DNA of 32,884 bases from Gammaproteobacteria bacterium (GTDB lineage Bacteria > Pseudomonadota > Gammaproteobacteria > Thiohalospirales > Thiohalospiraceae), in assembly GCA_024277575.1 (NCBI GenBank), contig JAJRUX010000096.1, forward strand, positions 1-32,884, given 5' to 3'. The notes under the pieces were generated by a model. That model had not been told where the DNA came from and did no database searches. It saw only the letters and a program-made list of their open reading frames with translations. The position numbers and the translations under genes were made by a program. Below, one piece after another: positions 14,749 through 28,612 of this stretch. The stretch's first letter is position 1. Each line of letters starts with the position of its first letter.

Positions 14749-16209
14749 TCAGCGCCGGCTGCCGGAGGTCACCTGCAAACTGGGCGGCATCCGCTTGACC
14801 GACAAGTTGTCCCGAACAAAGGTCCGATAGGGCAGCTCACCAACGTAGCGAACCATCGCCAGGTAGGTCACAGCAAAGGTCAACAGGGTGCTGGCAAAAT
14901 AGCCGGCACCGTAGAAAGGAAAGCCCATATTCAAGCTGACAAAGGTAAATACAATATTGGTAACAAGAAACAACCCCTGCAACGCCAGAACCAGACGGCG
15001 GAAATCAAAGTAGGTAAGAATAATAAACTGCATTACCAACAACACATGGAAAAAAGCACCCAGCACCCCGAACCGGAACATCCCAATCTGGGTGTAACTG
15101 AAACCGATCAACTCATACAACCGCGGCGACAGCAGCAACAGTACAATAACAATACACCCCTGTAATACGATCATGCTGCGCAGCCCGCTAGTCAGGCTCG
15201 CCGTTATTCGGGTCAGATTTTGTTGAATTCGTTCAAAATTAACGTGTTTCTGGATATCCCGATAGAACCGCAGGTACTGCATGAAAAAGTTGGTTTCCAC
15301 GCTTATCACAAACATCGCCAGACCCGGAATAATCGAGAGATAAGCAAGAAACATGGCAGCATCATAGTCAGGATATGATGGCATACCGGGGATGATCATC
15401 TCCCGCTCCGGTGCATACAGCCACATAATCCACTTGTCCACCCAGATTGCCAGATTATAAAACAGACCGGCCAGCGCCAACTCCCAGTAACGGCGGAAAT
15501 AGCGGACAAAACCAAATGGCTCCCGCGCATCTGCCGTGTACTCGGAGAATATATAGGCAATCAACCCGAACATTATTACTGCAAGTCCGATGGAAAAACC
15601 CATCAACATCCCTGCCAGGGAATAATTGCCGGCAAACAGCCAGGCAAGCAACAGTGACAGTATCAAACCCACCAGGAATGTTGTGGAAATAACATGATAG
15701 GCCTTCAGCGCAGTAAGATATACCGCGACCACCCATAATCCCGCAACCAGAAAATAGTTAACCATCGCGGCCACACGAATAATCGGTTCAAGCTCTACGT
15801 ACCAAAGATAAAACACGGCAACAAGCGGAAACTGGGTCAGAAATACCAGCACTACCGAACCAAGCAGCATCCCCGGCACTTTATTGAGCGCAGCTCCGCC
15901 GGAGCGCTTTCTATCAGAAGATTCATCTCCTGCACTGAAAACGAGATCTGCCAGATAGCGCGTCACAACCATGAAAACAGGCGCGGTAAATGCCAGCGAA
16001 AAAGCAAAGTTATAAATAACGATCAGTCGGAATTCGGCAATGGTCTGGTAACCGGCAACGTCGCTTATCCATATAATCAAGAAAAGTGAAACAATGGTCA
16101 GTATCCATGGACCCGCCGTTACCCAGGTTGAATAGAAGAATCCTGTGATAATACCTAGCAGATCGTCCCGCTGAACCAACTTGCGTAAATTGAACCCAAC
16201 ACCGGCCAT
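14749..16209 (-). CDS. pelG: PelG, Pel polysaccharide inner-membrane transporter/synthase subunit
   Basis: Polytopic membrane protein of the Pel synthase complex, thought to translocate the growing polymer across the inner membrane. The 486-aa product starts MAGVGFNLRKL, close to the Pseudomonas PelG N-terminus, and shows about 12 hydrophobic helices arranged like polysaccharide exporters of the MOP superfamily. The start codon overlaps the pelF stop (TGATG), as expected for subunits made in fixed ratio. The C-terminus is basic and cytoplasmic (SLQVTSGSRR). It is the last recognisable pel gene. A perfect ACGGTA-A-TACCGT repeat at 14735-14747 directly follows the stop and could be a weak 3' hairpin or an operator for the downstream kinase gene. 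Confidence 0.95.
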   Translation of the reverse strand: MAGVGFNLRKLVQRDDLLGIITGFFYSTWVTAGPWILTIVSLFLIIWISDVAGYQTIAEFRLIVIYNFAFSLAFTAPVFMVVTRYLADLVFSAGDESSDRKRSGGAALNKVPGMLLGSVVLVFLTQFPLVAVFYLWYVELEPIIRVAAMVNYFLVAGLWVVAVYLTALKAYHVISTTFLVGLILSLLLAWLFAGNYSLAGMLMGFSIGLAVIMFGLIAYIFSEYTADAREPFGFVRYFRRYWELALAGLFYNLAIWVDKWIMWLYAPEREMIIPGMPSYPDYDAAMFLAYLSIIPGLAMFVISVETNFFMQYLRFYRDIQKHVNFERIQQNLTRITASLTSGLRSMIVLQGCIVIVLLLLSPRLYELIGFSYTQIGMFRFGVLGAFFHVLLVMQFIILTYFDFRRLVLALQGLFLVTNIVFTFVSLNMGFPFYGAGYFASTLLTFAVTYLAMVRYVGELPYRTFVRDNLSVKRMPPSLQVTSGSRR

Positions 16210-17726
16210 CAGCTTGCTTCCTCAAGAGCTGTATCATCAACAGATTGGTGACGATAACGTTCATAAAGTTCTCGGTAAGTCCGATCGAAATCGGATTTGT
16301 TGTAATAACGGCGTATTCGTTCACGGATACCATCACTGCCACTCTGGTACCAATGCTGGTCGGTAAGCAACCGTTCTACCGCCTGCGCCGTTGCAGCAGG
16401 ATTGGATAATGGCGTAACAGCGCCACCATGGGGCGGTGGATGAGTATCATGATGATCAGACAGCAGGATCTCCCGACAGGCACCGACGTTGGTCGCAACT
16501 ACCGGAATACCCGCCGCACCGGCCTCCAGAATAACCAATGGCTGACCCTCACTTATACTGGTCAACACCAGAACATCTATTTTTCCCAGATAATCTTCCA
16601 GCCGCACCTGCCCGGTAAAAGTAATGATTTTTTCCAGACCCATGTGATCCACCATCTCCTGGCATTCCAGAAAGTATTGCTCCTCTTCCTCAATGGATCC
16701 CATCACCAGAGCCTGCAAATCCGGGATGCTTTCCTGCAACGTAGCGCAGGCACGAATGAAGGTCTTTACGTCCTTGATCTGCACCACCCGACCAATGAGC
16801 GCAATAGTCGGCGGGCGGGGACTCTGCTCGCGCGGTATCGCCGCGAAACGGTCAACATCCACCCCGTTGGGAATAACCATCATCTTTCCGCGGTTCGCCC
16901 CATCCATAAGCTGAAACAGCTGATTGCCCTCAAACAGAGTGATAATCTTGTGAGCGGCGCTATAGCAACAGCGTGAGTAAGCGGTAAATGCCTTGACCCA
17001 CATGTCACTCAGCTGATGAGGAAGACGATGCACACTCAAACTATCCTCCTCCATCTCGTGAAACCAGCTCGCAAGGGCAATCTCGATACGTCGTTCGTTG
17101 GTATAGATACCGTGCTCGGTCAGCAGAACCGGGCATCCCGTTTCCAGACCCGCTCTGGCAGCAAACAGCCCGGCATAACCCGTTGAGGGAGAATGATAGA
17201 TCCGCGCCCGCGGCATCTCCGCCAGCAGTACTGAATAAATACCACCAAACAGAGCGCGCCATGACCAGAAATAATCAAGGAAAGAGGTTTCGGGATGGGT
17301 CTTGCCGTACATCCGCACCAGCATCTCCCAGGCATAACGTGAATCCAGCAGCACGTTTGCCCCGATTCTCCCCACATGGGGCGTTAATATTGCCCGCACC
17401 TCATCCAGGTCATCCAGTCCACCATCGGTAAGCAGTCGCAACAGCGGCTCCTCGAGACGCGCCAGTAACTGCTTTTCCCCAGACATCCGGGACTCGCCTT
17501 TTGGAATTCGCTGCAACACGATTTGGGTAGTCGCCAGGACATTATCCGGCAGCTCATACCGATAGGTCAGATCAGCATCAGGGGCTACCAGAAAAACCAG
17601 GTGAAAAGTCAAGTGAGACTGCGCCTTGATAAGCTCATGTGTCCAGGATGACACCCCTCCTGATACAAAGGGATAGCTACCTTCCAGGATGATACAAACA
17701 TCCGCCTGTGCCGTGGTTTTATCCAT
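16209..17726 (-). CDS. pelF: PelF, Pel glycosyltransferase (GT4)
   Basis: Cytosolic UDP-sugar-dependent transferase that polymerises the GalNAc-rich Pel polymer in complex with PelD, PelE and PelG. The protein is 505 aa (Pseudomonas PelF is about 507). The N-terminal Rossmann half has DVCIILEG and GGVSSW (residues 23-28). The C-terminal half has VIPNGVDVDRF and IALIGRVVQIKDV, and the nucleotide-binding EX7E motif lies within EGQPLVILEAGAAG. All are GT4 hallmarks and none is missing. The ribosome site is GAGGGA about 8 nt before the ATG. It is separated from pelE by 92 nt and overlaps pelG by 1 nt. Confidence 0.96.
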   Translation of the reverse strand: MDKTTAQADVCIILEGSYPFVSGGVSSWTHELIKAQSHLTFHLVFLVAPDADLTYRYELPDNVLATTQIVLQRIPKGESRMSGEKQLLARLEEPLLRLLTDGGLDDLDEVRAILTPHVGRIGANVLLDSRYAWEMLVRMYGKTHPETSFLDYFWSWRALFGGIYSVLLAEMPRARIYHSPSTGYAGLFAARAGLETGCPVLLTEHGIYTNERRIEIALASWFHEMEEDSLSVHRLPHQLSDMWVKAFTAYSRCCYSAAHKIITLFEGNQLFQLMDGANRGKMMVIPNGVDVDRFAAIPREQSPRPPTIALIGRVVQIKDVKTFIRACATLQESIPDLQALVMGSIEEEEQYFLECQEMVDHMGLEKIITFTGQVRLEDYLGKIDVLVLTSISEGQPLVILEAGAAGIPVVATNVGACREILLSDHHDTHPPPHGGAVTPLSNPAATAQAVERLLTDQHWYQSGSDGIRERIRRYYNKSDFDRTYRELYERYRHQSVDDTALEEAS

Positions 17727-17818: not shown

Positions 17819-18931
17819 TCAACTTGACGAGGCGCTTCGCCCCAGCCACATCTGAATTGCATCAGCAATTCGTGGCCGCTGTTTGCCTGGCCCGTCAATA
17901 AAAGAGTTCCCGTGTTCACGCAAAAGTTTACGCAGCTCCTGGTAGTGCCCCAATTTGTACAAACATTCGGCATACCAGAGCATGAGTTGCGGCTCACCGT
18001 TTCGAAACTGCAACGTTTGACGCAACCGCTCAGCCGCCTCTTCCACCTCGCCCGTCCGTATCAACAGGCGACCCAGCCCTAGGGTCGCAGGATAGTTTTC
18101 CGGTTGCAATCTGATTATTTCACGATAAATCTGTTTGGCTTTCTCCAGGTTCACTTCCTCACGATCCCGCTCCAGCAAACCGGTAAAGGCGTAATCATCG
18201 TATAGCCTCGCCTGCCGAAGCAGTGTATCGATATCATCCGGAGCATTGGCAACGGCTCTATCCACCAGCATGGCTTTTTCCAGGAACTCGTTTTCTATCC
18301 GGGCTATTGACGAAGCAGCCATAACCCGAATCGAGTTGTCCGGATCCAGCAGGGCACTACGCAGGGCTGGGGCAAACTCAGGGCGAAAATGTTTACTCAT
18401 CAGCACAATGGCATCCCGCTTTTGCTGCAGGGTGCCATTGGCAAGAATATCTCTAAAGGAATCGGGAGCAGAAACTCCACCCAAGGCGCTGTGGACTTCA
18501 AGAAAATCGGCCAGTTCGGCAACTTCATCCCGTTGCTCTTTTGGAAACAGGCCGGTATACCAATCTTCAAAGCTTGTGGTCGTCCGTCGGTACCAGGCAT
18601 ACAGTGCAATAGTGAGTAGCGTCCCCATGACACCTATCGGACCAAACGCCGCCGTCGCAACCAGAAACAGATACACCGTGCGACGCTTTACCCCTCCCGG
18701 GCAATGAAACAGTTTCTGCTGCCAGAAAAGCAGTAGTGCCACCAGCAGAATGTGCAGTACAGCAGCCCACCCTATAGACAAAACATCCGCCGCCGTACCG
18801 TACAGGAGCATCAGCTCCAGCACCAACGTAATCAGCAACACGACAGCAAACTGAATACGGCAACCGGATGAGGTTTTGCGCCCCTTCACTGGTTGCTGGA
18901 TATATTTACTGCTTATTGTTGGGGCAGTCAT
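17819..18931 (-). CDS. pelE: PelE, inner-membrane TPR protein of the Pel synthase complex
   Basis: Predicted scaffold that links PelD to PelF/PelG. The 370-aa product has hydrophobic helices at about 27-47, 52-70 and 85-112. A cytosolic helical region follows (SDSxRV-MAASSIARIE resembles a HEAT-type step), and then TPR units at about 220-350 (IYREIIRLQPENYPATLGLGRLLIRTGEVEEAAERLRQ). Pseudomonas PelE is about 329 aa with the same membrane-plus-TPR plan. Assignment rests on this architecture and on position between pelD and pelF, since primary sequence is poorly conserved. AGG lies 8 nt before the ATG. It is preceded by a 61-nt gap after pelD and followed by a 92-nt gap before pelF, with no gene in either. 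Confidence 0.85.
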   Translation of the reverse strand: MTAPTISSKYIQQPVKGRKTSSGCRIQFAVVLLITLVLELMLLYGTAADVLSIGWAAVLHILLVALLLFWQQKLFHCPGGVKRRTVYLFLVATAAFGPIGVMGTLLTIALYAWYRRTTTSFEDWYTGLFPKEQRDEVAELADFLEVHSALGGVSAPDSFRDILANGTLQQKRDAIVLMSKHFRPEFAPALRSALLDPDNSIRVMAASSIARIENEFLEKAMLVDRAVANAPDDIDTLLRQARLYDDYAFTGLLERDREEVNLEKAKQIYREIIRLQPENYPATLGLGRLLIRTGEVEEAAERLRQTLQFRNGEPQLMLWYAECLYKLGHYQELRKLLREHGNSFIDGPGKQRPRIADAIQMWLGRSASSS

Positions 18932-18992: not shown

Positions 18993-20375
18993 TTAAATCC
19001 TAACCGCCCACGATGCTTCTCGTAACTCCCCCCCCAACTCACTCTGGAGGGCCTGCAGCAACCGCTCTTCCACAATTCGGGCATTTCGCGTCGGTGTGGC
19101 CGGAAGAATGATGGTAAATTCCCGGCCATTATTGCGCCGGTCAAAGGCCAGATCCGTGGTACGCAACACCTGATCAACCGCCTTGCTCAACGCAACCGGC
19201 GCATGAGAGCGCACATCCTTTGGCAGTTCATCGTAGTTCTGAAGCGCTATATCGATCTGCGCAAGAGCAAAGTTATGTCGCCGGGCCAGAGATGTTAAAA
19301 AGGCCGTCTGGCGAGTGTAATAATTGGAAGACAAAAACAGTCCGCTGTCGTTGACGACACTGTTCTCTTTCGCGGTATGAAACCGCCGAGCATTACCATA
19401 GACCGTACCAATCCATTCACACACCACCTCGAAATTCTTGATGGTTGTCCAGCCCAGTTCGATAAAATCCAGCTCTTCGATTTTGAGCATACCGATAACC
19501 TCGCCGGTTTCGGCGTTGGTTAATGGTCCTGCCAGGATGCCCTGCCGGTCCAGTATATGCTCATCATTCTCGTTGGAGATACTCAAGATGCGGCGACGCG
19601 CAACCACCTCCTGAAACAAGGGATGTTCCGCTCCAATAACTCGCAGATACTCATCCTTTCCTGTCCAGCCGGTATGTACCGCCGCTTCCAGCACATCCTG
19701 GCTAAGAATAAATACCGAGGATTTCTGCGGATTCATCACGGCACGGACCATATCCATGATGCTGAACAAAACCTTGCCCGAATCGAGTTGCTCCAGTGAT
19801 TTTACCGCCTGATGCATGGAGATAACGGTACGCATCTGACCTGCAACACGCACCTCCAGATCGGTTTTGATCTCTTGCTGACGCTGATAGGCATCGGCAA
19901 TAACCTTCTCATTTCGACGTGCTTCTTCCAATTGTTTACGCAGCTGTTCACGTTCCCGCAAATGACGCATGCGCAACTCGCCCAAAAACACAGCAGCAAC
20001 AAACCACATCAGCGGACGACGCACTATGTTGAACAGATAATCATAGAGATCCTGATTCAGGGTCTGCTCGGGAATACCCACCGCCAGCAAAACAACCGTC
20101 GCCGCCAGGGCGGCAAGTACGCCTTCCGCTGTGCCGTACTGTACTGTAACCAAAAGTATGATTAGCCAGAACGGATGTGGTGTGACATACCAGAATGAAT
20201 CTGCATCAAAAACGAACTGATCCAGCAAGATAGCCAGCACAAAAAACAGGGCAATCTCCAGCAATGCTGAGCGTCTTACACCCAGAATCCGGACCGGTTT
20301 GTGCTCCAAATCCTTTGCGGCATTTTCCGCCGCATTATCTGCAAATTTCGGGCGCTGCAATATCTCGGTCTTCAT
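18993..20375 (-). CDS. pelD: PelD, c-di-GMP receptor of the Pel synthase
   Basis: Inner-membrane receptor that activates Pel synthesis when it binds cyclic di-GMP. The 460-aa product (Pseudomonas PelD about 455) has four membrane helices (about 37-55, 68-80, 83-100, 120-132) and a charged coiled coil (about 138-175). A GAF domain (about 185-330) and a degenerate GGDEF domain (about 345-460) follow. The GGDEF active-site motif is absent, so no cyclase activity is expected. The inhibitory-site motif RTTD (405-408) is intact and matches the RxxD ligand-binding site of the Pseudomonas protein, with arginines further on (NARIVEERL). The ATG overlaps the stop of the second pelC gene (ATGA). Confidence 0.95.
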   Translation of the reverse strand: MKTEILQRPKFADNAAENAAKDLEHKPVRILGVRRSALLEIALFFVLAILLDQFVFDADSFWYVTPHPFWLIILLVTVQYGTAEGVLAALAATVVLLAVGIPEQTLNQDLYDYLFNIVRRPLMWFVAAVFLGELRMRHLREREQLRKQLEEARRNEKVIADAYQRQQEIKTDLEVRVAGQMRTVISMHQAVKSLEQLDSGKVLFSIMDMVRAVMNPQKSSVFILSQDVLEAAVHTGWTGKDEYLRVIGAEHPLFQEVVARRRILSISNENDEHILDRQGILAGPLTNAETGEVIGMLKIEELDFIELGWTTIKNFEVVCEWIGTVYGNARRFHTAKENSVVNDSGLFLSSNYYTRQTAFLTSLARRHNFALAQIDIALQNYDELPKDVRSHAPVALSKAVDQVLRTTDLAFDRRNNGREFTIILPATPTRNARIVEERLLQALQSELGGELREASWAVRI

Positions 20376-20950
20376 TGTTTGCCTTCCATCATTTGTTGTG
20401 ACAGCTCTTGCACCAGGCGCATTACCACTCGCTGTGCGGCCTCAGTCATGCTATCCCTTCCCAGATAGGCACTACCCACTTCAGAAGCACTGGCCGCCCA
20501 CAAAACCGCTCCATCAGTACGAATCAGGCGAACACTGATGCCAACAACCGGTTGCTTGCGGAAACCATAGCGATAGCCATATTCCGTTACACTACCGATT
20601 AAAACAGCATCGGCTCCTGCAGCCCGTGCCATCGCTACAGGCTCATCTGTTGAATGATTTCCAACAGGCTGTGCAGCATTTAACAGTGGAGATTCCTGTA
20701 CCGAAAACAGGCCTTCTTTATACAGCTCTGTGGCTACAATCTTGGCAACAGCAACTCCCGCCTTGGGATGAACCGTAAGATTTTGGAAGGGAACAACAAG
20801 CACACTCCCATCGCGCTGAGGCGGCGGAGAGTTGCTGATAAAATTACGCTCCAGATGAGAGCCGGTAGTACACCCTGAAAGCCAGAGCGCCGCCACTGCA
20901 AACAAGACAAATGCGACAGCTTTATAGCGGCTGTTTATGCCTGTATTCAT
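20372..20950 (-). CDS. pelC: PelC paralogue 2, outer-membrane lipoprotein
   Basis: Predicted outer-membrane lipoprotein forming or joining the periplasmic PelC ring beneath the export porin. The 192-aa product has signal peptide and lipobox LSGC with Cys27. The globular domain (about 48-185) has VVPFQNLTVHPKAG, GADAVLIGSVTEYGY, QPVVGISVRLI and VLWAAS. A conserved Trp-containing strand corresponds to the region that inserts in the membrane face of Pseudomonas PelC. It aligns along its whole length with the gene immediately upstream and is therefore a tandem duplicate. It is closer to canonical PelC in size (about 172 aa) than paralogue 1. It overlaps paralogue 1 and pelD by 4 nt each. Confidence 0.88.
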   Translation of the reverse strand: MNTGINSRYKAVAFVLFAVAALWLSGCTTGSHLERNFISNSPPPQRDGSVLVVPFQNLTVHPKAGVAVAKIVATELYKEGLFSVQESPLLNAAQPVGNHSTDEPVAMARAAGADAVLIGSVTEYGYRYGFRKQPVVGISVRLIRTDGAVLWAASASEVGSAYLGRDSMTEAAQRVVMRLVQELSQQMMEGKQ

Positions 20951-21633
20951 GATGGACTCCCCTCTGCCTCCCCGGCAACTGTACTACGCTGCCTAACCTG
21001 TTTATCACCGGCATTGTCCAGCAGCGAGGTTGAGCAACGCAGTTCATTCGCATCCAGCTGCTGCAGCTCTGTTGCCAGGGTATGTACAACCCGCTGCGCG
21101 GCCTGATTAAGGCTGTCACGATGTATAAAACCACGCCCGGTAACACTTTGACTGGAGGCCCAGACAACCTGTCCATCACAACCACGCACCATTCGCACGC
21201 TCAGGCCAACCACAGGCTCTTCGCGTAAACCATGTTGATAACGATACTCTGTCACGCTACCCAGCAGCACTGCATCCACACCGAGCTTGTGTGCCAACTG
21301 CTGGGCACGGGGTACGCTTCGAGTCTGCTTGTCCCCCTCCTTCTCATTGCGCAGCTGCTGGAGCAGCGCCGATTCCTCGCGAATCAGGAACGCCCCCTGC
21401 TGATACAGCTCAGTATTCATCAACTGAGTCAATATCTGACCCGCATTGGGGTGCTCGCTCAGGTTCTCAAACGGCAGAACCGCCACGTGAGGGGTATCCG
21501 GAGAAACAGTCCGGCTCTGTGCCCCATCTTTCTCTATTCCCTTGTTACTTGCACAAGCAGAAAGAGCGAACACAACAAGCAGAACCACCCCGAACAAACC
21601 TGTCTGTTTACTACCGAACTTTTTTTCCAACAT
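20947..21633 (-). CDS. pelC: PelC paralogue 1, outer-membrane lipoprotein
   Basis: Second PelC-type lipoprotein. From ATG 21633 it has 228 aa, with lipobox LSAC and Cys27. The domain mirrors paralogue 2: VLPFENLSEHPNAG, GVDAVLLGSVTEYRY, EPVVGLSVRMV, VVWASS, HRDSLNQAAQRVVHTL. It carries an extra polar C-terminal tail of about 40 residues with Cys (ELRCSTSLL...) that paralogue 2 lacks. The track start (GTG 21813) would overlap pelB2 and place the signal peptide internally. ATG 21633 is preceded by AAGGG and gives a normal lipoprotein signal. It starts 71 nt after the pelB2 stop, the only real gap in the first half of the operon. Confidence 0.87.
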   Translation of the reverse strand: MLEKKFGSKQTGLFGVVLLVVFALSACASNKGIEKDGAQSRTVSPDTPHVAVLPFENLSEHPNAGQILTQLMNTELYQQGAFLIREESALLQQLRNEKEGDKQTRSVPRAQQLAHKLGVDAVLLGSVTEYRYQHGLREEPVVGLSVRMVRGCDGQVVWASSQSVTGRGFIHRDSLNQAAQRVVHTLATELQQLDANELRCSTSLLDNAGDKQVRQRSTVAGEAEGSPS

Positions 21634-21704
21634 CACGATTTTATCCCTTGTCATAAATGCAACTAATGGGCGCTGATATACTCCACCCGGGAATTTCCGA
21701 AAAA

Positions 21705-23306
21705 TCAGAAACGCCACAACAGATAACAGCCTGCCCGCGTATAACGGGCGTACTCTCCACGATACGGACCTGCACTGTGAACAAACTTCAGACCGGTCTC
21801 CAGACCGAGCCACGGTTCGTAAGCCAGATTAGCTGTCACAAACGGTCCACCAGCCTCATTGCGCGGATCATAGCTGGCGCCAATGCCAGCCTCATAGCGC
21901 AAATAATCACTTAGTCGATCAAACCACATGGCATCCAGCGTATGTACCTGGCGGGACACCACCGGCAGCGGATGATAATCAATTCCCGCATACCGCCGCG
22001 TGTCAACAGAGGTTCGCTCTTCCAGATCCAGGTTGTAACCAACGCTCAGTCGCGGCGCCACTTCCTGCAACAACAGCCGGGCACCGAGCTTGACGCCATA
22101 ACTGCCGGCTACACTATTGTCATCCTTGACTCCGTAATTTCGCGCTGAAGCTGCAATATAAGTTGAGAGAGCTTCATCCACCGGCCGCCGCCAGCCATCC
22201 CGGCCCGGCCGTTCCCAACCCACGGTCAGGCTATCAACGGTACCACCATCCACCACCCCTTCGACATACTGCCATGCCGGCGCCTGATAGCTTGCATCTA
22301 TCCAGACCCGCGCAAGATCCAGACGCTGGGAGTATTCAGCTCGCAAGCCAACAGCACCTTCATTTCCGCCAGACAAGGTCAAACGCGTGTGGGCTGCCCA
22401 ATCAAAGTGCCGTTGCGCATGCAGTTCAAAATACTCTCTTTCACCACTAAATGAGCCCAGCGGACCATCGATACGACGTAACTCGTTGTCCCGTATTGAA
22501 CGTCGCTCATATGTAAAACCCAGTTGGGCTCTCTCCCCGAAAAGCTGATATCCCGACAACCGGGAAATCTGCTGCCAGTCAGCATCATGCAGTTGCTGCC
22601 AATCCATATCCAGACGCAGACGGGGACCGTACTCATACAACAAACCGGCCTTCGCCGCGATTACCGGCGCATCCTCCCGCCCCATATGCAGTGCCTGGTT
22701 ATAGTAGGTAACGGCCCGCTGCCACTGCCCAAGGCGCGCTTCAATACCGGCCATCTCCGGTAACAACTCTCCGCTGTCCGGATACTGCTCATGCAGCTCC
22801 GCCAATTTTCCACGGGCTGCAAACAACCTTCCGCTCTCCGCCAGCCAAAGCGCTCGCAACCGCTCGAGACGAAGTGCAGTTGCCTCTCGTTGCCGCAAGG
22901 ACAATCTGGACTGCTTTTCTGCATCAGCAACCTCCGGACGGGAGATTAATTCTAGAGCAATATGGGTGTCATCCTCCGCCTGAACACGAAAAATGACATC
23001 CCGCCCGGCGTGTATCAACAAACTGTCATAGCCGGTACTGCTCCAGTCAATCCACCCAGCCGCACGGCTAGTCATATCAGCAAGCAATGAGGGGAGGAGA
23101 GGAGAGGAAAACCGTAAAACCACCTCTCTTCCATCCACTTCATGCCGCACACTCACGGGTTCATTCCAGACGAAAACCAGTCGTAACCGCTCTGCACCAG
23201 AATCAACGTGCAGTTCAACACCATTATCGGCATGTACCATTGGGAGCGCAGATAACATTACCAGTAACATCAGCGCCGGTAACATGTTCCTGTGAAGCCG
23301 CATCAT
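21705..23306 (-). CDS. pelB: PelB C-terminal part: outer-membrane porin with own signal peptide
   Basis: Predicted outer-membrane beta-barrel through which Pel is secreted. The 533-aa product has a Sec signal peptide (residues 1-26, cleavage after VHA). Residues about 28-125 form a beta-rich domain (LHVDSGAERLRLVFVWNE...) that resembles AMIN-type periplasmic domains and is not something I know from canonical PelB. Residues about 145-240 are TPR-like (LHEQYPDSGELLPEMAGIEARLGQWQRAVTYYNQAL). The rest has amphipathic strands ending ...LLWRF, an outer-membrane protein C-terminal signature. It overlaps pelB1 by 4 nt (ATGA). Together the two halves equal about one PelB (713+533 versus about 1193 aa). 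The signal peptide shows that the split is functional and not a frameshift. Confidence 0.88.
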   Translation of the reverse strand: MMRLHRNMLPALMLLVMLSALPMVHADNGVELHVDSGAERLRLVFVWNEPVSVRHEVDGREVVLRFSSPLLPSLLADMTSRAAGWIDWSSTGYDSLLIHAGRDVIFRVQAEDDTHIALELISRPEVADAEKQSRLSLRQREATALRLERLRALWLAESGRLFAARGKLAELHEQYPDSGELLPEMAGIEARLGQWQRAVTYYNQALHMGREDAPVIAAKAGLLYEYGPRLRLDMDWQQLHDADWQQISRLSGYQLFGERAQLGFTYERRSIRDNELRRIDGPLGSFSGEREYFELHAQRHFDWAAHTRLTLSGGNEGAVGLRAEYSQRLDLARVWIDASYQAPAWQYVEGVVDGGTVDSLTVGWERPGRDGWRRPVDEALSTYIAASARNYGVKDDNSVAGSYGVKLGARLLLQEVAPRLSVGYNLDLEERTSVDTRRYAGIDYHPLPVVSRQVHTLDAMWFDRLSDYLRYEAGIGASYDPRNEAGGPFVTANLAYEPWLGLETGLKFVHSAGPYRGEYARYTRAGCYLLWRF

Positions 23307-25444
23307 ATTTTCTGCCCCCCTACTGCCAAAACCTCTCCCGCCTGATCGATATGGCCGGTCTCGATCAGGACAGTGGCAAAATCAGCCCGCAAATCAGGGT
23401 TGTCGGGATAAGCAGCCAGTAACTCTTGAAATGCGAGAATTGCGTTGTCTCGTTCACCGAGTCGATAAAGGCTCTGGGCCCGAACACTCGCCTTGCGCAT
23501 ATCCAGCTCCGGTTCTGCCGCAAGCAACTGAATAACCCGGCGGTAATAGGGTACTGCCAGTTGTGTCTTGTTCCGCCGCGTCAGTAGTTCAGCATAAAAA
23601 TAGTTGCTCTCCACATCACCACTGGTGGTGTTGAGATAACGCCCAAGCATGTCAAATGCATCTTCCCAGCGCCCTTCCTGATAAGCGAGCAAACCGAGCC
23701 TTCGAAGCATGTCGGGATCGCCAGGAGCGATAGCAAGAATGCGTCTGCTGGCCTCCAGTGCCAAATCTGTAAAACCAACCTGATCCGCTCGACGTATATG
23801 GCGACGCAGCTGTTCAACGCTCTGACTGTCTCTTATGGCTTGGCTCAGGACAAGACGCAAGCGAGGGTAATCCTCTTCCCGCTGCAGGATGTCCATCTGA
23901 AATTCAACCGGCTCGCCACTAAAACCGAGTGACACAAGATCACTCTCACCCATTTTCAGCACGCGCTCGGTAGCACCTATATCGAGTAACCGCTCCAACC
24001 ACGCCAGCCGTTGTTTACCCTGTGCGCTGCGAGCCCGCTCTTCCACCCACTGCAATCCAAGCGGTTCAGGCCGGGGACCCCAGATATAAAGCAATTGACT
24101 TACTTCAGGACTTTCGGCCGGTGCTTTTGCAGCCAGTTCCATATAGATCCTCTCTGCCAGAAGCTTGTCCCCCAACTTCAAAGCACGGTATGCCAAAGCC
24201 CGCTTCTCTTTCCGGCTCAGATTCGGCTGTTTTAGCTGCAGTCGCAACAGGGCGAGCAGCTCGTTATGCCGACCTGCTTTCTGCAGGGCTGTTTCATAGC
24301 GATAACTCATCTCCTTCCTTTCTTCATCACCGAGATCGGAACGCATCAGCTGCTGCTGCCAAAATGCAAGCAACTCTTCCTGCCGCTTTGCCTTGCGCAG
24401 CATGGATTCGTAGCGGTAGGTAACCGCCTCCCTCTCCTCTGGACTCAGACCTGGACGCTGAATCTGATCCAGCAGATAGGCAAGCAGCGTCTGCTGGCGG
24501 TTGTTCTCACGCAATGCCGCTTCATAGCGTTCACCCAGCTCCCGGCGCTGCTGTTCATCCAAATCGGAACGCAGCAATTGCTGGCGCAGGAAAGCCAGCC
24601 GTTTCTCCTCACGTCCCAGCTCACGCAGGGTAGTCTCATAGCGATAGCTGATTTCCCGCTTCTCCTTGTCGCTCACATCAGCTCGAGTAAGCTGACGATC
24701 CCAGAAGGCAAACAGTTCTGTATAACGACCCGCTCCAGCCAGTGCCCGCTCATAGTAAGCAGTCCATCTGCCACCGCGATTACCATAACCCTGGAGGTAA
24801 GTAATTGCCCCTTCATACTGCCCCAGATCCAGAGAAAGGCTTACCAGAAACTCCCGTGCCCGCATATCAAACGCAGCTGGGTGCTCACGCGCAAGCTTGC
24901 GCAGTATATCTGTCGCTTCAACAATATCCCCTTCTGCCGCCAGCAAATAGGCAAGATCAAGATAGTCATGCGGCTGTGCTTCATAGTCCTGCACAATACG
25001 CTTCAACACCTCGATCTGCTGGCGATAACGCCCCTCAGCATTGTAAAGTTGCGAAAGATTGCGCAAGGCTTGCTCCGAGGGCTGTACCTCCGTCCGTTTT
25101 TCCAGACTACCGAGATAATCATGAGGACGCTGGGTCTGCTGATAAAATTTACTCAGCCTCAACCGGGCTTCCATATTGCCCGGATTGTATTCAACAAAGG
25201 TTTCCATCAACTCTACCGCTTTGCCCATCTCTCCATAGATGAGGTATAGATCGGAAAGTGGCAGCACCACGTTGGCAGACGCATCTCCTTTCTCCAGCAA
25301 ATTTTCGTACTCTGCACGTGCCGCTGTATATTGCTGGTTTTTATAATGCATCAACGCCAACTCGGAGGGGCGTGGATAAACCAGATAACCGCCAACCAGC
25401 CCCAGCGCCACCACCAGCAAAACGATAAAATGCGCATTCCTCAT
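23303..25444 (-). CDS. pelB: PelB N-terminal part: membrane-anchored periplasmic TPR protein
   Basis: Predicted inner-membrane-anchored periplasmic scaffold that captures PelA and guides the polymer to the porin. The 713-aa product has one N-terminal helix (5-23), then TPR repeats (about 30-215). Five tandem 38-residue helical repeats follow (229-418), and more TPRs run to the end (YQEGRWEDAFDMLGRYL, LYRLGERDNAILAFQELLAAYPDN). It stops after a last TPR without barrel strands, because the porin is encoded by the next gene with a 4-nt overlap. The start overlaps the pelA2 stop by 1 nt (TGATG). In Pseudomonas the TPR and porin parts form a single PelB polypeptide. Assignment comes from order, TPR content and partner genes. 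Confidence 0.85.
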   Translation of the reverse strand: MRNAHFIVLLVVALGLVGGYLVYPRPSELALMHYKNQQYTAARAEYENLLEKGDASANVVLPLSDLYLIYGEMGKAVELMETFVEYNPGNMEARLRLSKFYQQTQRPHDYLGSLEKRTEVQPSEQALRNLSQLYNAEGRYRQQIEVLKRIVQDYEAQPHDYLDLAYLLAAEGDIVEATDILRKLAREHPAAFDMRAREFLVSLSLDLGQYEGAITYLQGYGNRGGRWTAYYERALAGAGRYTELFAFWDRQLTRADVSDKEKREISYRYETTLRELGREEKRLAFLRQQLLRSDLDEQQRRELGERYEAALRENNRQQTLLAYLLDQIQRPGLSPEEREAVTYRYESMLRKAKRQEELLAFWQQQLMRSDLGDEERKEMSYRYETALQKAGRHNELLALLRLQLKQPNLSRKEKRALAYRALKLGDKLLAERIYMELAAKAPAESPEVSQLLYIWGPRPEPLGLQWVEERARSAQGKQRLAWLERLLDIGATERVLKMGESDLVSLGFSGEPVEFQMDILQREEDYPRLRLVLSQAIRDSQSVEQLRRHIRRADQVGFTDLALEASRRILAIAPGDPDMLRRLGLLAYQEGRWEDAFDMLGRYLNTTSGDVESNYFYAELLTRRNKTQLAVPYYRRVIQLLAAEPELDMRKASVRAQSLYRLGERDNAILAFQELLAAYPDNPDLRADFATVLIETGHIDQAGEVLAVGGQKI
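24191..24760 (-). repeat. Five tandem 114-bp units coding 38-residue repeats within pelB1
   Basis: Units at residues 229-266, 267-304, 305-342, 343-380 and 381-418 share the pattern YRYE-ALR--GR-EELLAF--QQL-RSDL--EER-E. Length is exactly 38 in each unit, with no indels. Examples of unit starts are YRYETTLREL, ERYEAALREN, YRYESMLRKA and YRYETALQKA. They are charged helical hairpins that differ from the 34-residue TPRs on either side, and they probably grew by internal duplication. Confidence 0.85.
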
Positions 25445-27672
25445 CAGACCGTCTCCTGCCGGTAATCAATATGAATCTGTACCGTTTGATTAGGTACCTT
25501 GGAATCGATAGCAAAATGCAGCTGTTTTTCCTCGGAAACTGCAACTGTTTGGCGCCTGATTTCACCACTTTTATTGGTTACACTAATCACATAATCACCT
25601 GCCTGCGGCACCCGCCAGATCATTTTTCCCTTACCAAATCCCATTGTTTCAAAACTGAACGAACTTGGCCTGCGCTGCACTCCCCATACCCGCCAGTTTG
25701 AGCCGATCAGATAGGGAAAAGATGAGTCTGGCTCCCTGTCGCTGTCACCATAATCACGTAGAGCAACAACGGCATCAGACACTGTTTGATCAAGAGCCAC
25801 GTAAAGAGAACCCTGATAGTGATACTGACCCACCACACCATGCGAATCTCCAAAATCAACAGCGGAAAAAAGCGCGTGGTCAAAGCGCAATGTCTGCAGC
25901 GCCTGTCGATTATTGATACGCCACTGCCGTTCACCCGTCTGCTCTATCTGAGTGGTAAAAAAACCCTCAGCAATCGCTGCATAATGGCTGGTGGTAACCG
26001 GAATAATCGGCTGGCTACGCGCATAGTCCAGGTTCGCCCGTACTGCATTGAGACTGGAGAGTTTCTGCCCAGAGTACATGTGATAATAGACTCCCATTGG
26101 TTTGATCCGCACCGGAGTCTCCGTGTTATTGAGCGTTCGAGTCAGGTGCCTATAGCCAAAAAACTGCTCTGACCACTGGTCAGTGTATGTGTTTTCATTA
26201 CTATTGGAAGCATATATCTGTAACTGCCCCCCTGACATCTGGCCCAGAGGAGATACCCAGCCATACGATGGATACTTGCGATCCAGACGGGTATCTCCCC
26301 CATTGATATTACGAACGCCCAACTTCCGCGTAAGCTCTATTGCAGCAGGAAAAGGATTGGTATCACCAGACCACTGGTAAACCTGTACCTTTTTACCTTG
26401 TGGTAACAGGGAATTGACAAACCTGATTGCCCCTTCTATCTCCAGCTCCAAATCAAAGGGTTTAACCGCATAGGCGCGTGGTGTGACATAACCGGTTTTT
26501 TTGTAGTAGACGCTATCTGTCTTGCCGACCTTCCGCAAGGCACCCTTCCCTTGCCACGGTCTGCTATAGAATCTCAAGAAAGGCCGCTCCTTGTCAGGAT
26601 CACCGTCTGCAAAAAAGCCCCAGTCAAAAGGATGACTGTAGGTATGGCTGCCAGCCTCCACTTGCGGCAATGCCAAAATTTCTCGAGCAACCCGCAGACT
26701 TTTCCGGCTCCCATGCCATGCCGGATCAATATCACCGGCTATGGGAGCAACAGTGACCGGCAGCTCCGGATAAGCCTCGATGATCTCGTGCTCGACAATC
26801 TCCGAAGCGAGAATCCCTCTGTTCCTATAAGGATAAATCTCGGTAAGATTATTCCAGCCATCACCATCAATATGACTGAAGAAAATGCGCTTTCCGGCAA
26901 GCGTAGTGGTATCCGGTTTGGGCAGCTCATCTGTAGTCAGCGCCCGGCGGAAAAATTCAAACGGGTTGATATACCACTGAACGGTATCAGTGGATTCGTT
27001 ATGGAAATAGGCATATCCCGATGCAATCCATCCGCCTTTGCGGGTAATTACCACCAGGTCACTATCAGTGGCAGGATCGCCGGATTGACGCACTTTCAGA
27101 CCTGAGTAACCCTGTCCCTCGATTACACTCAACCGTTCGTAACCAGGCAACACGCCACCGACCCGGCGCTCGAAATCCACAAGTTCAGGATCCCTGAATA
27201 CGATTTTTGACTTGTAGGTAAGAGGTATCCAGTCATCCCCACTACGCAATCCCAGCTTCACCCAGAACTGATCAATCAGCTCCTCACGCGACAGCTGCTC
27301 CGAATCATCCTCACTGCCGAAACCACCGACCATGATCAACCGCTTGCCGCTATCCAGGATCTCTCCGGCCCACGCAATGAAATCGCCGGGATCCTCCATC
27401 TGCACGGCCTCCCAGACCAGAACACCTCTTACCTCCGGAATTGAAGCCGGTAGAGGCAATGGTTCATTGATATCGTGATAACGAACGACAAGCCCCAGAT
27501 GGTTAAGCGGCATCTCTGCCAACCGATGGATGGCAGAAAAGCGCGGCTCGGCAACACTCCTTCCGTCATACAGGGCCAAGATGGTGCGCGGAATAACCCG
27601 GGCACAAAGCGGCTGAACCTGAACAGCCAACAGCAAAAGCAGCCAGCAGGTAAAGAGGAGGCGTTTATTCAT
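25444..27672 (-). CDS. pelA: PelA C-terminal part: periplasmic Pel deacetylase
   Basis: Predicted metal-dependent de-N-acetylase that removes acetyl groups from Pel in the periplasm, which makes the polymer cationic. The 742-aa product has its own signal peptide (1-24). Residues about 28-250 form a Rossmann/glutamine-amidotransferase-like domain (TILALYDGRS, GVLVWEAV, LIMVGGFGSED). A CE4-type deacetylase domain follows, with FFSHIDGDGWNN (Asp269/Asp271) and GSHTYSHPF (His343/His347). These match the Asp and HxxxH metal ligands of Pseudomonas PelA in spacing. The C-terminal ~130 residues form a beta domain. The hydrolase domain that precedes this in PelA is encoded by the upstream gene, with a 4-nt overlap. 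Confidence 0.93.
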   Translation of the reverse strand: MNKRLLFTCWLLLLLAVQVQPLCARVIPRTILALYDGRSVAEPRFSAIHRLAEMPLNHLGLVVRYHDINEPLPLPASIPEVRGVLVWEAVQMEDPGDFIAWAGEILDSGKRLIMVGGFGSEDDSEQLSREELIDQFWVKLGLRSGDDWIPLTYKSKIVFRDPELVDFERRVGGVLPGYERLSVIEGQGYSGLKVRQSGDPATDSDLVVITRKGGWIASGYAYFHNESTDTVQWYINPFEFFRRALTTDELPKPDTTTLAGKRIFFSHIDGDGWNNLTEIYPYRNRGILASEIVEHEIIEAYPELPVTVAPIAGDIDPAWHGSRKSLRVAREILALPQVEAGSHTYSHPFDWGFFADGDPDKERPFLRFYSRPWQGKGALRKVGKTDSVYYKKTGYVTPRAYAVKPFDLELEIEGAIRFVNSLLPQGKKVQVYQWSGDTNPFPAAIELTRKLGVRNINGGDTRLDRKYPSYGWVSPLGQMSGGQLQIYASNSNENTYTDQWSEQFFGYRHLTRTLNNTETPVRIKPMGVYYHMYSGQKLSSLNAVRANLDYARSQPIIPVTTSHYAAIAEGFFTTQIEQTGERQWRINNRQALQTLRFDHALFSAVDFGDSHGVVGQYHYQGSLYVALDQTVSDAVVALRDYGDSDREPDSSFPYLIGSNWRVWGVQRRPSSFSFETMGFGKGKMIWRVPQAGDYVISVTNKSGEIRRQTVAVSEEKQLHFAIDSKVPNQTVQIHIDYRQETV

Positions 27673-28520
27673 ATGCGGGGCTCTGGAACAATACGATCCA
27701 ATGCGACTGTCGCCACGTACGGGACAAAACCGTTCGCCCGCTGCTCACGATAGATAGCGGCAATACCCGCGTGATCCTGCGGCTCCCAGTAGTCCAGGGT
27801 AAAGACCTTCAATGCCGGGTTATGTCGGACCGCCTCTTTCAAATAGGCCAGCTGCTGCTGATAGAGCTGTTTCGGAACGCGCTGGTAGGACTTGCTCTCG
27901 AAATCATAGTCGGCATACACCGATTCCCCCAACACGATATCGATGTCACCCGCGACCTGCGGCAAAATCTCATAGGCCCGATTCAGCATTATCTTGATAT
28001 GGGGGTAATGCTTGCGAATGGTGCGTACCAGACGGATAGCCGCATCAGTCATTCCCTGGTAACGTTGGGGATCTTGTCGCTCCAGATGCAGAGGGCTGTC
28101 CAGAGTATCAAGGAATACGCCATCGAATCCTTGATGTAACAGGGCAGGAATCAACTCATAAATAACCCGTTCAGTCCAGTTTCGATCGCGAATATCAATA
28201 CTGTGACTACCCGCCCAATTGGGATTCTCATCCAACAGGAGACCTTCTTTGCGCACCTCTCCAAAATAGTGGCGATGCTGCTCTGCCTCCCCCAAACTGA
28301 GATAACCCAGCAAAGTCTTTCCATGTTCAGACAAAGGAGCAAGCTCCGGGCGATAGTCGCTATCGAGAACCAGCAGCGCATAGGCGTTGAAATCCCTTGG
28401 CGAAGCCTTATCGGAGTAATACGCAAGCCACCGCTGGCCCTCTGCTGCACCCGCTTTCATCGCGAGGCCGTTTGGAAGTAGAGCAAAATACAAAGTAAAT
28501 AAAAGTAGACTACGCAGCAT
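27669..28520 (-). CDS. pelA: PelA N-terminal part: stand-alone Pel hydrolase (GH166-like)
   Basis: Predicted periplasmic or secreted endo-hydrolase of GalNAc-rich Pel, corresponding to the first domain of Pseudomonas PelA. From ATG 28520 the product is 283 aa, with signal peptide (1-27, MLRSLLLFTLYFALL...) and one TIM-barrel domain. Catalytic-type acidic residues lie in FDGVFLDTLD (Asp138) and VLGESVYADY (Glu199), the latter at the position of the PelA nucleophile region. The track start (ATG 28589) adds 23 basic residues before the signal peptide. I favour 28520, which has GGAAAAG 11 nt upstream, but 28589 remains possible. It is the first gene of the operon, and a sigma70-like promoter lies just upstream. 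Confidence 0.9.
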   Translation of the reverse strand: MLRSLLLFTLYFALLPNGLAMKAGAAEGQRWLAYYSDKASPRDFNAYALLVLDSDYRPELAPLSEHGKTLLGYLSLGEAEQHRHYFGEVRKEGLLLDENPNWAGSHSIDIRDRNWTERVIYELIPALLHQGFDGVFLDTLDSPLHLERQDPQRYQGMTDAAIRLVRTIRKHYPHIKIMLNRAYEILPQVAGDIDIVLGESVYADYDFESKSYQRVPKQLYQQQLAYLKEAVRHNPALKVFTLDYWEPQDHAGIAAIYREQRANGFVPYVATVALDRIVPEPRI

Positions 28521-28612
28521 AGCTGGATAAACTTTTCCATGTAATTTAGTCTGGGACGGTCGGTGGCGCCATTTTTTTGTCATCGCCATAATTCCGACGC
28601 CGTATTTTTGTA

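Follow-up and report, generated by a model that had tools for sequence, protein, structure and literature searches.

The locus described here raises the question of why PelB, the exporter of a Pel exopolysaccharide operon, is encoded by two genes, and what an additional beta domain is doing on its porin half. The whole stretch of DNA analysed (the window, 32,884 nucleotides), from a marine member of a gammaproteobacterial metagenome genus, carries on its minus strand a complete pel operon including PelD, PelE, PelF and PelG, in which PelA and PelB are each represented by two genes. PelA consists of a separate hydrolase half (GH114, 27669..28589, Pfam PF03537 with E of 1.6e-24) and a separate deacetylase half (25444..27672), the latter matching fused PelA proteins with E values of 1e-59 to 1e-82. 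These are followed by the 713 aa TPR half of PelB (23303..25444, an open reading frame matching Pfam TPR families) and its 533 aa porin half (21705..23306), two PelC-like lipoproteins recognized by a PelC profile (20947..21642 and 20372..20950) and PelD with GAF and degenerate GGDEF domains (18993..20375; Pfam GAF_3 5.9e-8, GGDEF 0.0075). A PelE-like TPR protein (17819..18931) was assigned from Pfam TPR matches and position, the PelF glycosyltransferase (16209..17726) from NCBIfam NF038011 (425 bits against a cut-off of 100), and PelG (14749..16209) from position and homology to the PelF-adjacent PelG of other Pel operons. With PelF above its cut-off and all neighbours found, the window porin and TPR protein together are the probable exporter of Pel. 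The two tandem PelC-like lipoproteins (window 20372-21642) differ from one another, are conserved in the genus and possibly form a mixed ring.

The TPR half contains a single strongly hydrophobic segment close to its N terminus (residues 4-22, 25379..25435, minus strand; mean Kyte-Doolittle 2.38, next best segment 1.02), which hydropathy identifies as a transmembrane helix, and an N-terminal inner-membrane helix has likewise been described for canonical PelB (PMC12141448). Almost all split operons on complete contigs had a homologue of this half. The two PelB genes overlap at an ATGA (23303..23306, minus strand) and 9 of the 11 split operons inspected have a 4-base overlap, which suggests from the sequence that translation of the halves is coupled. 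In the window porin the inner-membrane helix and long TPR rod are not part of the same chain as the barrel; as they lie on a separate chain, it is the porin/TPR pair and not the porin alone which equals PelB. The middle of the TPR half (window ~24180-24700) also contains several near-regular helical repeats of about 40 residues, of the EKREISYRYETTLR... type, which align poorly with the Halothiobacillaceae homologue.

The porin half begins with a signal peptide (residues 1-26, 23229..23306, minus strand), read by eye as MMRLHRNMLPALMLLVMLSALPMVHA followed by DNG and modelled with low pLDDT. An AlphaFold2 model of the whole porin from 27 sequences (mean pLDDT 87.3) displayed, in order, a confidently folded beta domain (residues 31-122), a short linker of low confidence, two TPRs with a stalk helix, and a barrel. 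On the minus strand, the beta domain (taken as residues 28-125) occupies 22932..23225, the helix, TPR repeats and stalk helix (residues 137-226, with weak Pfam TPR matches) 22629..22898, and the outer-membrane barrel (residues 229-532), in which 16 strands were counted in the model, 21711..22622. The top Foldseek match in the PDB was PelB of the PelBC complex (9h80_M, E 8e-15, TM 0.77 by target), followed by BcsC and PgaA; the model thus has the 16-strand barrel after TPRs and a stalk helix that is expected of PelB. A profile of the porin core from which the domain had been removed gave no clean sequence alignment with canonical fused PelB, the match being by structure only.

When the beta domain was modelled alone it gave a pLDDT of 93.5 and a pTM of 0.84, with two four-stranded sheets in the strand order bbbb-alpha-bbbb of the AMIN fold. 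Structural comparison by VIA-align returned the AMIN domain of AmiC (4bin) with a Z of 12.2 (2.2 A over 96 of 102 residues, 14% sequence identity) and those of PilQ with Z of 12.2 (3jc8), 9.8 (4aqz) and 9.0; together with PflA (Z 7.7), the AMIN domains were within the top six matches, a Synechocystis protein scored 10.2 and other beta-sandwiches reached at most 6.8. Foldseek matches to small heat-shock and CS domains were set aside as a general beta-sandwich likeness, having large rmsd and Z of at most 6.8. Four members of the domain gave no match to Pfam AMIN (PF11741) at E values up to 10, Pfam searches of the whole porin and isolated domain returned only TPRs or one chance match, and the domain profile retrieved nothing of use from the PDB sequences. 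When compared profile to profile with 21 AMIN sequences, the domain reached a probability of 60%, collinear over 82 columns. None of 150 column shuffles rose above 4.2%, whereas circularly shifted AMIN alignments still reached 24-46%, so the sequence-profile evidence taken alone is modest and it is the fold which carries the AMIN claim. The extra domain is thus predicted to have an AMIN fold without being a member of the Pfam AMIN family, and the fold does not by itself establish peptidoglycan binding. In these respects the initial annotation, which had described PelB as split into an inner-membrane TPR protein and a separate porin, and the porin as a signal peptide, an AMIN-like region of about 100 residues, a short TPR region and a barrel, agreed with the models.

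A careful PelF tree separated two clades with support of 100/99, clade I, in which PelB is of the canonical fused form or split in other ways, and clade II, with the AMIN-type PelB. In the window genus, the domain and layout were present in all members with readable loci (59-81% porin identity). An AMIN-type porin with 25% identity to that of the window was found in Halothiobacillaceae UBA5861, another class had such a porin in 11 of 48 genomes, and in the cultured genus Azospirillum the domain is found on porins encoded on plasmids, as in Azospirillum thermophilum (DEW08_RS24700 and the porin DEW08_RS24695). A further survey used PelF and not the porin as bait, and was therefore independent of the latter. 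It covered the class of genome G712, very probably Alphaproteobacteria judging by the 60-66% identity of the porin of G798 to Azospirillum porins. Eight of the ten PelF-positive genomes had an AMIN porin and one more had the domain on the TPR half. The AMIN-type PelB lineage is present in at least three classes of Pseudomonadota, and its recurrence across the genus, Halothiobacillaceae and other classes indicates that layout and domain are neither a chance occurrence nor an annotation error. Tandem copies of the domain, as in PilQ, were present at two loci (L100, L134), with a weaker second copy at a third (L101). Genomes whose clade-I PelB is fused or split in another way gave no domain match, and no copy was detectable in the clade-I PelB proteins themselves, which is in keeping with the earlier impression that canonical PelB lacks it.

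Several related arrangements were seen along the way. Most clade-II operons have PelA as two genes, GH114 hydrolase and deacetylase, as in the window (25444-28589), whereas clade-I PelA is mostly a single chain. Genome G418 has two AMIN-type porins (L092, L143), one in a porin-PelC-PelD-PelE-PelF cluster and a second, divergent one on another contig in the order PelA1-PelA2-TPR-porin. The AMIN porin gene of G853 is spread over different frames and contains internal TAG and TAA codons (L135:9318-10961), which makes it a pseudogene or an assembly error. A stand-alone lipoprotein of ~150 aa consisting of an AMIN-like domain adjoins an NAD-dependent epimerase in G755, a genome without PelF (L141:9619-10102). 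At another locus (L142:9013-10524) an orphan barrel with an AMIN-like domain and no TPR detected has aminopeptidase-like and glutamine synthetase-like neighbours and no pel genes nearby.

The relatives in which PelB is a single chain proved decisive for the origin of the domain. In the order to which G712 belongs, 21 of 105 genomes matched the porin profile, mostly in open frames of about 1,320-1,550 residues. These fused PelBs (~1,450 aa) have an inner-membrane helix, a TPR rod to ~970, a segment of ~100 residues, and TPRs and barrel from ~1066. At least ten of the segments matched the domain profile directly, and when 15 of them were aligned and compared with the domain the profile-profile probability was 97.4% (P 1.4e-11, shuffles at most 1.1%), which puts a homologue of the domain at the equivalent site of the fused chain, after the long TPR rod and ahead of the two TPRs and barrel. 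The first strands are poorly conserved in the fused proteins, and direct comparison of the fused segment with AMIN sequences gave no signal (1.3%), so its tie to AMIN runs via the window-type domain. In G712, PelB is split just downstream of the domain, and the domain accordingly forms the end of the TPR half (residues 1002-1057, scoring 20.0 bits where the best shuffle reached 11.7). Two operons with split PelB (L222, L224) and one with fused PelB (L223) had no detectable domain, and it is thus not indispensable in the lineage. Clade-I PelBs split at other points are also domain-free (L045, L052, L053, L054), one of them (L054:6091-10102, G289) being a PelB in three pieces of 286, 547 and 504 aa with no AMIN-like domain. 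A quick FastTree which included the fused AMIN forms placed all operons split upstream of the domain in one group (support 0.91), with the fused forms outside it and G712 next to a fused relative. The simplest history is probably that an ancestral fused PelB already had the domain, that an old fission occurred upstream of it and that a later one occurred downstream, as read from this quick tree of moderate support, built on PelF and not PelB.

On balance, we favour the reading that the window PelB is the exporter of a second, deeply separate Pel lineage, in which the AMIN-fold domain, lying where the rod joins the pore, holds the porin to peptidoglycan. Considering its position between rod and pore, its fold, and the known wall binding of PilQ, whose AMIN domains bind peptidoglycan in pull-downs (PMC5285504), anchoring or positioning of the exporter on peptidoglycan at the seam is the most likely role. 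The initial annotation had suggested that the added domain could bind peptidoglycan or the TPR partner, in replacement of the covalent link lost with the split. The domain is certainly there, it always accompanies the split in the window's branch and it is absent from canonical fused PelB; however, residues 28-125 do align within fused PelBs, the outcome which that annotation had itself named as refuting its idea, at least ten ~1,450-aa proteins of the same lineage hold the homologous segment at the same position, and other split PelBs are without it. We consider a gain driven by the split very improbable, unless the fused forms are themselves re-fusions of split genes; the domain is most probably an older part of the exporter lineage and not a patch.

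The main rival reading, possible if doubtful, is that the halves are held together by docking of the domain, or of its linker, onto the TPR half; the domain would then have predated the split and helped to make it tolerable. The domain lies exactly at the seam and its sixth structural match (Z 7.7) was the N-terminal domain of PflA, which with PflB of the Campylobacter flagellar motor shares the two-part layout (PMC11870540, PMC11392913), and the loop after the PflA AMIN domain wraps the TPRs of its partner (PMC11870540). The linker after the domain in the window porin is, however, about 14 residues long as compared with 38 in PflA, G712 has the domain attached to the TPR half instead, and docking is further weakened by fused PelBs which retain the domain with no need of a dock and by domain-free splits in both clades. 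Contact of the domain with the passing polysaccharide or with PelA, rather than with peptidoglycan or the TPR half, appears improbable. Pel is cationic, the domain lies on its likely route and its net charge is negative in most members (-9 in the window), but it is near zero in several and we know of no AMIN domain that binds a polymer such as Pel.

Under the anchoring reading, the ancestral PelB would have been one chain with an inner-membrane helix, a long periplasmic TPR rod, the AMIN-fold domain, two TPRs with a stalk and the 16-strand barrel. In the window branch the gene would have been cut just upstream of the domain, the porin part acquiring its own signal peptide, and the two halves would meet non-covalently at about 1:1 through coupled translation. 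Pel would leave PelG, run along the TPR rod and enter the porin once the separate PelA proteins had trimmed and deacetylated it, while the AMIN domain at the junction would tether the outer-membrane part to peptidoglycan, as in AmiC and PilQ, so that rod and pore stay aligned.

For P. aeruginosa, PelC has been reported to be essential. Genome-wide searches for PelC (E <= 0.01), which did find the controls, gave none in seven well-assembled clade-II genomes (G167, G712, G825, G823, G866, G864, G767), nor in the incomplete G810 or 17 further genomes of the fused-PelB order; the absence concerns loci L060, L102, L134, L137-L140 and L207-L226 together with the rest of their genomes. Pel systems of this kind may do without a PelC ring. 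That the AMIN domain, by fixing the exporter to peptidoglycan, does the positioning job of the P. aeruginosa PelC ring, with many lineages exporting Pel without PelC, we regard as unlikely. Pel exporters fall into two deeply separated forms, of which one has a fold known for wall binding at the meeting point of periplasmic rod and outer-membrane pore, and this opens the testable question of how a periplasm-spanning exopolysaccharide duct is held to the wall. Natural variants are on hand, fused or split, with or without the domain and with or without PelC, and Azospirillum thermophilum, of a soil and plant genus, offers a cultured host.

A full-text search of open-licence papers for PelB together with an AMIN domain returned no paper on Pel export. 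Fission of PelB as such was already known from aquatic thermophiles (Bundalovic-Torma 2020, PMC7112194, Fig 5iii), where PelB likewise lies in more than one gene, although we found neither a description of its domains nor an AMIN domain there. What appears to be new is the AMIN-fold domain marking a second lineage of Pel exporters. The P. aeruginosa PelB (PMC12141448, PDB 9h80) shares with the window pair the inner-membrane helix, TPR rod, two TPRs with stalk and 16-strand barrel, but it is one chain, has no AMIN domain described and resembles the other, canonical PelF clade. The PflA-PflB pair of the Campylobacter and Helicobacter flagellar motor similarly joins a protein with signal peptide, AMIN domain and TPRs to an inner-membrane TPR protein, but is a motor scaffold with no barrel. 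With the AMIN domains of AmiC and PilQ the window domain has in common its fold, the order of its strands, a location behind the N-terminal signal peptide and occasional tandem copies; it differs in escaping detection by Pfam AMIN, in sharing its chain with TPRs and the 16-strand porin of an exopolysaccharide exporter, and in that its wall binding is putative.
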